NCBI RefSeq assembly: GCF_003600895.1
Contig: NZ_QYRP01000002.1
Location: 1,240,001 to 1,304,000, forward strand
Source of the DNA: Nocardioides cavernaquae
GTDB lineage: Bacteria; Actinomycetota; Actinomycetes; Propionibacteriales; Nocardioidaceae
Direction: 5' to 3'
DNA: 64,000 nt
This document shows positions 53,683-55,139 of this stretch, one piece after another (positions within the stretch are counted from its first letter, which is position 1; every line of letters begins with the position of its first letter). Both the position numbers and the translations under genes were made by a program. A model generated the notes under the pieces. The model had not been told where the DNA came from and did not search any database. It worked only from the letters and a program-made list of their open reading frames with translations.

Positions 53683-53760
53683 CAATTCTGCAGGTCTATG
53701 CAATGCATGTTTCTGCAAATCAGATCAGTGGCTGTCTGGCTGCACAGACCGGCAGAATTG
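53683..53760 (+). promoter_or_regulatory. Long inverted repeat upstream of the peptide gene
   Basis: CAATTCTGCAGGTCT (53683-53697) and AGACCGGCAGAATTG (53746-53760) pair over 9 + 5 bases with one mismatch, closing a 48-base inner region that has a second short stem (CAGAT/GTCTG). The region is AT-richer than its surroundings. It also holds the 11-mer GGCTGTCTGGC (53730-53740) found in the promoter of the nearby regulator gene. RNA leader or operator cannot be told apart from sequence alone. Confidence 0.5.
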
Positions 53761-53816
53761 GGATTCGAGGAAGCAGCCGTTGCCAGGCTCGGGCGGCAAA
53801 CTTAGGGAGACCCACC

Positions 53817-53939
53817 GTGAAGTCCAAGATCCTTCGTGGCATCGCCACGGCGATGACCGTCCTGGCCCTGTCTGTGGGCGCGGCGGCATCCTTCGACGCG
53901 CCCACCACGCACCCGGCTGCCGACACCGGCTGGCCGTGA
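53817..53939 (+). CDS. Small exported peptide precursor (40 residues)
   Basis: GTG 53817, with AGGGA eight bases upstream, opens a 40-codon frame. It has a basic start (MKSKILRG), a hydrophobic signal-like segment (TAMTVLALSVGAAAS) and a short polar tail (FDAPTTHPAADTGWP) that would be about 15 residues after cleavage near AAAS. It lies tail-to-tail with a LuxR/TrmB-type regulator and amid strong RNA structure. A secreted signal peptide is the attractive reading; a tiny orphan membrane peptide is the alternative. Confidence 0.55.
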   Translation: MKSKILRGIATAMTVLALSVGAAASFDAPTTHPAADTGWP

Positions 53940-53944
53940 GCCCC

Positions 53945-54037
53945 GGCGCCTCACGGAGGCGCCACCACTGATCTGAGACGAGGACCAGCCACCCCCACTG
54001 TTCGGTCCCTAGACCAATCCCCCCAGGTTCGTCTCAG
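53945..54037 (+). ncRNA. Structured 3' region of the peptide transcript
   Basis: Directly after the peptide stop, GGCGCCT/AGGCGCC forms a hairpin (53945-53963). Then CTGAGACGA (53973-53981) pairs with TCGTCTCAG (54029-54037), enclosing GGACC/GGTCC (53982-53986 with 54004-54008) and CCT/AGG stems, a multi-branched fold. It may be a small RNA or a stabilising 3' UTR. Confidence 0.45.
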
Positions 54038-54038
54038 A

Positions 54039-54075
54039 ACGCGAGGACAGCAGCCCGTCGTTGCTGTCCTCGCGT
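54039..54075. terminator. 14-bp hairpin between peptide and regulator genes
   Basis: ACGCGAGGACAGCA (54039-54052) pairs perfectly with 54062-54075. It lies between convergent genes and can stop transcription from either side. Confidence 0.8.
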
Positions 54076-54097
54076 TGCATTTCGGGGCGGGCGTGGT

Positions 54098-55081
54098 TCA
54101 GTCACCCTCGGCATCGCGACGCGCCGCTTCGAGGCCCATGCGGTAGCCGAGCTGGAAGCGCGTCTGCGCCTCGTAGGCGATCTTCAGATCGGCCAGGTAC
54201 GCCGCGTACGTCCGGTCGCTGACACCCATCCGCTTGGCGCTCGCCGTGTCCGGGTGGCCCTCGATGAGCATGCGCGAGGCCATGGCCCGCTGCTCCTTCG
54301 CGATCTCGGAGACGGGATCGGTGTGCGCGAGCGTGAACGGCCGGCCGCGGTCCCAGTTCCGCTCGAACATGTCGACCAGGTAGGCGACCAGGTTGGGGTC
54401 ACGGATGACGAGCGCGCCGCGGTGTCCGCCGGCCGCCGGGATCAGGGCCACGCGCCGGTCGACGACGATCAGCCGGTTGAAGAACTCGTCGAGCGTGCGC
54501 ACCTCGGCACCGATCGCGGTCACCTTCGCGACGTACTGCCGCTGGAAGCGGGCTCGTCGCGCGGCGTGCTGGTAGATCGTCCGCATCTGTACGCCGCGCT
54601 GCAGCGCAGCGGTGTCGCGCGCCGTGGCCGCCTTGAGGGCGACTGCATTCCGCCCGAGCTGCGGCTGCGCCGTGAGCAGCTCCTCGCGGGCGTCGGCCAG
54701 CAACTCCTCGAGGAACCGGTCGATCTGGTCGCCGTGGAGCTCGCTGATCGGCCCCTTCTCGGTGGCCGGGGAGCGCCGGTAGGTCTGCGCCAGCTCGGTG
54801 AACGCGTTGGCCCACGAGCTGGTCTCGGCGATCAGCTGTGATGCGCGCTGGCCCATCGGAGCGACAGTGGCGCTCTGGACCATCTGCGGGTCGACGACGA
54901 CGTACTGTCCCGGCGAGTGCTCGCGGAGCAGCCCGAGACGCTGCAGCAGCGTCGTTTCCGCGGCGGCCTTCGTGACCAGCGGGTCGTCCGCTGCGACGCC
55001 CCCACGCACGGCGATCTCGGCGAACAACTGGCCAGCCGTCGACTCCAGGAGCTGCAGTTGTTCTGGACCCACGTTCCCCAT
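54098..55081 (-). CDS. LuxR/TrmB-type helix-turn-helix regulator
   Basis: A 327-residue regulator. The N-terminal 60 residues form a TrmB-like winged helix (QLLESTAGQLFAEIAVRGGVAADDPLV...LLQRLGLLREHSPGQYVVVDP); the centre (ARRARFQRQYVAKVTAIGAEVRTLDEFFNRLIVVDRRVALIPA) is the phospholipase-D-like sensor part seen in this group; the C terminus (EGHPDTASAKRMGVSDRTYAAYLADLKIAYEAQTRFQLGYRMGL) is a LuxR-like HTH. The family is abundant in Streptomyces and other actinobacteria with few known ligands. ATG 55081 follows GGGAAGGGG. Its promoter contains an inverted repeat related to one in front of the peptide gene. Confidence 0.82.
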   Translation of the reverse strand: MGNVGPEQLQLLESTAGQLFAEIAVRGGVAADDPLVTKAAAETTLLQRLGLLREHSPGQYVVVDPQMVQSATVAPMGQRASQLIAETSSWANAFTELAQTYRRSPATEKGPISELHGDQIDRFLEELLADAREELLTAQPQLGRNAVALKAATARDTAALQRGVQMRTIYQHAARRARFQRQYVAKVTAIGAEVRTLDEFFNRLIVVDRRVALIPAAGGHRGALVIRDPNLVAYLVDMFERNWDRGRPFTLAHTDPVSEIAKEQRAMASRMLIEGHPDTASAKRMGVSDRTYAAYLADLKIAYEAQTRFQLGYRMGLEAARRDAEGD

Positions 55082-55113
55082 GACGCCCCTTCCCTCCCCG
55101 TCGCGGTGATCAT

Positions 55114-55139
55114 GCCAGACAGCCGATTTCAGGTCTGGC
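55114..55139. promoter_or_regulatory. Inverted repeat GCCAGAC-N12-GTCTGGC
   Basis: Perfect 7-base arms at 55114-55120 and 55133-55139, about 19 bases centre to centre, lie upstream of the regulator start (55081). GCCAGACAGCC (55114-55124) is the reverse complement of the 11-mer at 53730-53740. A LuxR-type dimer site for autoregulation is likely. Confidence 0.55.

Follow-up and report, generated by a model that had tools for sequence, protein, structure and literature searches.

A 40-codon gene for an apparently exported peptide and the adjacent gene for a 327-residue regulator in Nocardioides cavernaquae probably make up a peptide pheromone circuit, in which the signal is read by a cytosolic receptor of the PLD/TrmB type. 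The pair lies within a stretch of 64,000 nucleotides (here called the window, to which all coordinates refer unless another locus is named). A preliminary description of this DNA had proposed that a secreted peptide was paired with a dedicated regulator. That proposal is supported by the conserved pairing of the two genes, by identical core repeats within the precursors, by an operator with its targets and by a change in the PLD-like domain which is linked to the core.

The peptide gene

The pro-pheromone gene (MKSKILRGIATAMTVLALSVGAAASFDAPTTHPAADTGWP; 53817-53939, forward strand) was called as an open reading frame of 40 codons with a GTG start, and a ribosome-binding site, AGGGAG, can be read from the sequence at 53804-53809 on the same strand. 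Its product possesses a hydrophobic leader with basic residues and terminates in AADTGWP; the codons for the signal core DTGWP, recognized from the D-x-x-W core common to 152 peptides, occupy 53922-53936 (forward strand). The precursor leaders consist of a basic n-region and a hydrophobic stretch, as judged by a rule-based hydrophobicity score and not by SignalP, and secretion of the peptide is predicted from this leader. The regulator gene (54098-55081, reverse strand) lies tail-to-tail with the mini-gene, 158 nt separating the two stop codons, which confirms the arrangement originally described, a signal-peptide mini-gene ending in ADTGWP opposite a regulator. It had also been noted that no exporter or importer gene stands beside the pair, and indeed no transporter gene adjoins it. 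A perfect hairpin, seen by eye at 54038-54076, is probably a terminator common to both convergent genes, and tRNA genes are present on both flanks of the pair. The window peptide had no match in NCBIfam, and a protein search with it alone returned a single, identical protein, a 40-residue query being too short for a word-based search.

Distribution and conservation of the pair

A regulator match of some kind was found in 97 of 98 genomes of the genus. In 93, that of N. cavernaquae included, it was a close orthologue (E ≤ 1.5e-47); four possessed only distant paralogues and one nothing. At E ≤ 1e-20 homologues were present in 61 of 120 genomes of the family (9 of 26 genera) and 104 of 394 of the class, and phage records searched with the window regulator gave no match. 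The best named orthologues, among which the nearest records may be left out, are those of Nocardioides phosphati (71%), N. jejuensis (67%) and N. donggukensis (64%). Within its own genome (3.47 Mb) the regulator matches only itself.

The 3' side of the 93 close orthologues was scanned for leader-bearing ORFs in which the leader is followed by D-x(1,2)-W. A leader-bearing mini-gene with a D-x-x-W core was found at 86 of these loci, the window included. A stricter scan retained it at 81, as against 0/93 at each of three control positions (one on the other strand and two on the 5' side) and 1 in 930 dinucleotide shuffles. Among the seven loci without a called peptide, L091 and L093 are at contig ends, L074 carries a variant (...SDWPCAACK), the ORF at L009 terminates in ...ARGDTSWG but its leader is poor, and the 3'-side scan found no mini-gene at L005, L060 and L071. 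In a set of named loci, many of whose genomes overlap the 93-locus set, the mini-gene is present at 76 of 80, that of L213 having an uncertain start. None was called at L162, which carries the variant ATSWGCGG, at L167, at L208, where the contig extends for 0.4 kb on the side in question, or at L222. In other genera of the family it occurs at 10 of 11 loci, and each of these precursors has at least two copies of the core; at the eleventh locus the contig extends for only 0.4 kb on the relevant side. Loss of the small ORF beside orthologous regulators had been named in advance as the observation that would overturn the pairing; the attempt at refutation failed in all three sets, and these comparisons make a conserved peptide/regulator pair nearly certain. 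Like the window peptide, those of the nearest named relatives end at the core (N. phosphati ...AGDTSWG, N. jejuensis ...AADTSWT).

At three of 17 fetched loci of distant paralogues (ca. 30% identity) a leader-bearing mini-gene also lies nearby (L094:2281-2445, L096:1931-2119 and L097:3615-3746), with the ends DAFDWE, QDWGWE or GGFSWPSTPRP. These are perhaps further peptide classes of a wider receptor family.

The peptide core

The first core in the 152 unique precursors is one of 19 four-letter words, the commonest being DTSW (49), DTGW (31), DSSW (24) and DTTW (15), and is followed by G in 114 and by P in 17 precursors. Core positions 2, 3 and 5 are each specified by several codons; the aspartate is encoded by GAC in 151 of 152. 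Precursor length is 38-100 residues in 151 cases and 109 in one. A single core copy is present in 126 precursors, with two copies in 14, three in nine, four in two and six in one. Cores vary from species to species, but within each of the 26 multi-copy precursors every copy is the same, the probability that two different precursors share a word being 0.18; since D and W were fixed by the search, only the two middle letters are informative in this comparison.

Covariation between core and regulator was assessed in 71 non-overlapping close pairs, 23 of which have different cores. Pairs with different cores show more differences in the PLD-like domain; the identity-stratified p values are 0.026 for this domain, 0.89 for the N-terminal part and 0.53 for the helix-turn-helix, neither of which shows the effect. 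The unstratified test gave stronger values (residue 152, maximum-test p 0.01), but the stratified one is preferred because greater divergence of a pair accompanies a difference in core. The best single column reached p 0.12 in the stratified maximum test, so that none survived it, and the choice of helix 145-161 was made once the data had been inspected.

The regulator

The proposed peptide receptor was defined by ORF calling, Pfam and homologue searches. A structure model and Foldseek place a PLD-like (TrmB-type) domain, the proposed site of peptide binding, at residues 106-250 (54332-54766, reverse strand). The model also contains a C-terminal helix-turn-helix at residues 256-302 (54176-54316, reverse strand), where Pfam HTH_23 matches residues 263-294 below its cut-off. 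Pfam TbsP_N is matched above its cut-off; Regulator_TrmB lies below, at 12.6 bits against a cut-off of 22.2. At E ≤ 1 there is no TPR match, the confident model showing a PLD-like domain, and no match to GerE/LuxR. The earlier label "LuxR/TrmB-type" is therefore roughly right: its TrmB half gains a TbsP_N match though Regulator_TrmB falls short, and its LuxR half, meant for the DNA-binding part, finds no support in Pfam, which gives no GerE match in the window protein (GerE is seen in paralogues of the Streptomyces type).

Foldseek matched the N-terminal part plus the PLD-like domain of the model to 5bpd, 5box, 3qph and 2f5t, and the identity to solved relatives is 10-18%. A sequence search of the PDB with the regulator profile gave two matches, neither of them plausible. 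Active members of the phospholipase D family possess the catalytic motif HxKx4D. At this position the regulator has the conserved residues F201-x-R203-x4-D208, which depart from that motif, and the domain, without the HKD catalytic residues, is predicted to be catalytically dead. A PLD-like effector domain is a trait of the TrmB family, and the likeness of the window protein to the archaeal regulators TrmB and TrmBL2 and to haloarchaeal TbsP covers the N-terminal part plus this domain, together with the TbsP_N match. It differs from them in being bacterial, in its extra C-terminal helix-turn-helix and in its proposed ligand, a peptide.

Upstream elements and the predicted operator

The elaborate sequence reported upstream of the peptide gene is real, in that an inverted repeat of 20 nt (53683-53760) has arms at 53683-53702 and 53741-53760 which are 90% complementary. 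The 11-mer GGCTGTCTGGC, which had been noted in both upstream regions, is indeed present at 53730-53740 and, inverted, at 55114-55124. It occurs three times in the genome, however, the third copy reading as inside a coding region, and in 44 other pairs (of 151 other unique ones) the longest word common to the two upstream regions is only 7-10 bases, so that the 11-mer is probably not a functional element. It was rejected as an operator and finds no support as part of the circuit. The palindrome CCAGAC-N14-GTCTGG was likewise rejected, since at ≤2 mismatches its 177 matches in the genome were outnumbered by the 217 of the control.

A motif search upstream of non-redundant peptide genes yielded TGCA-N6-TGCA-N-TGCA-N6-TGCA. 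The window holds an exact match to this predicted 29-bp palindromic operator at 53689-53717 (TGCAGGTCTATGCAATGCATGTTTCTGCA), overlapping the left arm of the inverted repeat. With up to three mismatches in the 16 fixed bases, the palindrome is found within 200 bp of 69 of 86 peptide genes of the genus, a count which is not independent, as the motif was derived from the same sequences, and in none of 1720 mononucleotide shuffles; in 68 of the 69 genes it is centred 91-130 bp before the start codon. It was found upstream of none of the 86 regulator genes, and is absent from the remaining 17 peptide genes as well as from those of N. phosphati and N. jejuensis. The Nocardioides peptide genes at L040, L047, L049, L051, L053 and L054, and further ones at L056, L059, L063, L064 and L073, lack the palindrome and are mostly of the DTGWGW type. 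The promoters of such genes may use another site. Regulators with and without the operator have almost identical recognition helices, apart from a D-to-E change in 15 of 24 of those without it and 7 of 116 of those with it (12 regulators missed by the pattern were dropped from this comparison).

Genome-wide sites and candidate targets

At ≤1 mismatch the genome of N. cavernaquae contains three sites, one at the peptide gene (exact), one before a protease gene, and one in the gap between DUF4439 and proS genes (exact). When up to three mismatches are allowed, five places match, as compared with two for a reversed control. The protease site is 93 bp before the start of a secreted matrixin-like protease (PF00413, 34.0 bits; cut-off 24). 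Exact sites occur in 27 of 96 genomes of the genus and exact control sites in none. At ≤2 mismatches 73 forward matches, in 31 genomes, compare with 56 for the reversed control; this background is real, so single sites mean little, and we have relied upon conserved places. In five named genomes the palindrome has 16 forward matches at ≤2 mismatches against two for the control.

The matrixin-like protease gene is preceded by the site at ca. 83 bp in N. phosphati (1 mismatch), at ca. 81 bp in N. jejuensis (2 mismatches) and at 77 bp in one further genome (2 mismatches); N. phosphati and N. jejuensis also carry an exact palindrome at the DUF4439 gap. In four further genomes the palindrome is located 86-96 bp before a gene for an M4-type protease (0-1 mismatch). 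At L255, L262 and L267 the site is 208-264 bp before the M4 gene, and on account of the intervening hairpin these were not counted as M4 targets. At these three Nocardioides loci and at L247, L258 and L270 (position 1501) the operator lies between the stop codon of a DUF3263 gene and a strong hairpin, and an M4 protease gene adjoins this operator at three of the six.

A palindrome beside DUF4439 is found at no fewer than 18 of the 47 loci fetched with a site, a selection in which weak sites and peptide genes are also represented. It lies in the gap to convergent proS/HAD genes (L242:1501-1529, i.e. G000:C2:124091-124119; also, for example, L317, L335, L344 and L345), and is present even in clades which have lost the operator of the peptide gene. 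No leader-bearing small ORF was called at this operator in ten loci, and Rfam at gathering thresholds found only two tRNAs in 13 loci, eight or nine of which cover the DUF4439/proS gap. In three of six loci for which three frames were read (L317, L330 and L335), and also in L337, one frame is open beyond the site. The element may be a small gene, a small RNA or an antisense RNA.

At ≤2 mismatches no site was found in three complete genomes that lack a close orthologue (controls 2, 0 and 3), which speaks weakly for a link between regulator and operator; two incomplete genomes of this kind have one site each. In view of the 17 peptide genes (of 86) that lack the operator although the helix is nearly unchanged, we rate binding of the 29-bp palindrome by the adjacent regulator only as probable.

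Homologues of the Streptomyces type

Forty listed homologue places at the class level, several of them from the same genome, were fetched, of which 34 come from one family and six from others. We take the former, referred to as Streptomyces-type, to be Streptomycetaceae, in part on the basis of plasmid records, as 117 of the 122 with a regulator homologue belong to Streptomyces. Large genomes of this type contain up to five regulator matches each (five being the most candidates scored per genome), and many of their several paralogous putative receptors are paired with different words. A divergent, leader-bearing D-x-x-W precursor is present at 21 of the 40 loci, as against 0/40 at every one of the three control positions. 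The 21 are confined to the 34 Streptomyces-type loci, with none among the six from other families. Copy numbers are high: DSTW is repeated ten and nine times (at paralogous loci), DIAW nine times, and DSGW and DVGW seven times each. A single word is used in 16 of 17 multi-copy precursors, the exception, L287, having four DPGW and one DPSW. Four sample precursors had no Pfam match above cut-off. A block conserved in 17 of the intergenic regions, at a distance of some 85-115 bp from the start of the peptide, has a consensus containing the half-site TGCAGGAAC.

At seven of these loci, nine ORFs in the neighbourhood proved to be parts of DnaJ (three), GerE regulators (four, one just at the cut-off) or without a match (two). 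L274, L278 and L280 are near dnaJ. At L283, L292 and L302 further regulator genes of GerE/PLD type adjoin the peptide-linked one, an arrangement suggestive of clustered duplication of receptor genes.

Among five named Streptomyces loci from the 122 plasmid records, two have a leader-bearing D-x-x-W ORF: L340, where it is downstream and ends ...GDSAWG, and L354, where it lies 1.6 kb away and ends ...GDTEWTNP. A third, L353, has an annotated divergent small gene ending ...DDEWHVGCP, and the remaining two have none. The homologue at L340 (NZ_CP107895.1, 183515-189438) adjoins genes for a 2-ketoarginine methyltransferase and for beta-methylarginine biosynthesis, a setting hinting at control of a specialised-metabolite cluster; here the GDSAWG ORF is annotated as a hypothetical protein. 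At L353 (NZ_CP108444.1, 240477-246457) the homologue adjoins an AfsA-related gene of the butyrolactone synthase type, so that two signal systems possibly stand side by side.

The proposed circuit and its alternatives

In the proposed circuit the mini-gene would give rise to a Sec-exported precursor, which signal peptidase and further trimming would convert into a short peptide built on D-T-G-W-P (in general, D-x-x-W-x); candidate ligands are DTGWP, ADTGWP and FDAPTTHPAADTGWP. The peptide would accumulate outside the cell and be re-imported, probably through an oligopeptide permease of the Opp type (the genome contains two OppA-type genes, PF00496). It would then bind to the PLD-like domain of the adjacent regulator and alter, by activation or repression, the action of the helix-turn-helix at the 29-bp palindrome, which is centred ca. 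90-130 bp ahead of the start codons both of the peptide gene, providing feedback, and of the secreted metalloproteases. Processing, import, binding to the PLD-like domain and operator binding are all inferred. More broadly, we consider it fairly likely that this is a peptide language spanning the class Actinobacteria and independent of RRNPP in origin, with Sec-exported D-x-x-W-x precursors of 1-10 copies, a separate dead PLD/TrmB-type cytosolic receptor for each word, several private channels in Streptomyces-type genomes, and control of secreted metalloproteases and of a conserved element beside DUF4439/proS in Nocardioides; few peptide languages are known in this group of bacteria.

The alternative to which we give most weight, though still an unlikely one, holds that the palindrome is the site of another regulator, under whose control the peptide gene also stands, and that the adjacent protein senses the peptide but binds elsewhere. 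Its estimate was raised slightly in view of the background palindrome counts (73 against 56), and it gains from the operator being missing at 17 of 86 peptide genes with hardly any change in the recognition helix, and from its absence before the regulator gene. Against this, clades without the operator at the peptide gene keep the site elsewhere, at a conserved place, and the half-site recurs in the Streptomyces-type block at a similar distance from the peptide gene; the lack of sites in the three complete orthologue-free genomes points the same way, weakly, the background being of the same order. We give roughly half as much credence to the idea that the mini-genes specify a multi-core secreted product, a RiPP or an antimicrobial, whose production the regulator merely controls. 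Repeated identical cores do occur in some RiPP precursors, and one of three Streptomyces-type precursors examined has a weak match to the NCBIfam thiovarsolin model (21.9 bits; cut-off 35), the other two having none. No modification enzyme is seen by eye beside the pair in the window, however, nor is there a YcaO, radical-SAM or P450 protein among the nine neighbouring ORFs; the precursors carry Sec-type leaders by rule; and changes in the core track changes in the PLD-like domain, which a pure product would not need.

A slightly less probable reading still is that the peptide serves its own cell as a sensor of the capacity for secretion, proteolysis or import, and is no population signal. The same anatomy would be expected in that case, and single-copy precursors, the window's included, yield one peptide per molecule; up to ten core copies and operators before secreted proteases are better suited to a signal that accumulates outside the cell. 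That a chance ORF fell beside an unrelated regulator is conceivable in GC-rich DNA, with its many short ORFs, but is refuted by the counts of the stricter scan against its control positions and shuffles, and we give it practically no credence. The pheromone circuit is preferred to all of these.

Relation to known systems and significance

Several known systems resemble parts of this circuit. The alpha-factor precursor of yeast contains several copies of the pheromone, as do the multi-copy precursors described here, but it is eukaryotic and its receptor is G-protein-coupled. The gamma-butyrolactone systems of Streptomyces also have a cytosolic DNA-binding receptor in actinobacteria; their signal, in contrast, is an enzyme-made small molecule and their receptor is of the unrelated TetR type. 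In Bacillus, NprR-NprX and PlcR-PapR are peptide sensors controlling secreted proteases, a likeness in function, while their TPR receptors have another fold. The RRNPP/RRNPPA systems of the Firmicutes (Rap, Rgg, NprR, PlcR, PrgX, AimR) share the small leader-bearing precursor and the adjacent DNA-binding receptor; they differ from the window pair, which is actinobacterial with a PLD/TrmB-like receptor bearing a C-terminal helix-turn-helix, and from its relatives, whose precursors hold up to ten core copies. In the available part of a 2023 survey (PMC10075063) RRNPP systems are recognized by a propeptide of 10-100 residues, Sec export, a receptor of 250-500 residues with TPRs, and adjacent genes. 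The window pair agrees in the size of its propeptide and of its receptor and in adjacency, Sec export is indicated by rule only, and the receptor lacks TPRs. Judged against the available parts of PMC10075063 and PMC12700828, the circuit would by analogy work like an RRNPP system without being a member of that group.

The excerpts of the 2023 survey (PMC10075063) describe the signals of Actinomycetota as typically enzyme-made small molecules and those of Bacillota as oligopeptides, and those of a 2016 review (PMC4748050) list cyclic or modified peptides and butyrolactones for Actinobacteria. No comparable system is described in the available portions of these two papers or of PMC13220807, PMC12700828 and PMC10434017, and a full-text literature search, covering few subscription papers and no preprints, retrieved no description of one. 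If the reading is true, a conserved family of peptide receptors shared by Nocardioides, related genera and genomes of the Streptomyces type would alter the picture of actinobacterial signalling and bring a new fold to the receptors of peptide pheromones, and synthetic pentapeptides would offer a direct handle on regulation in antibiotic producers.
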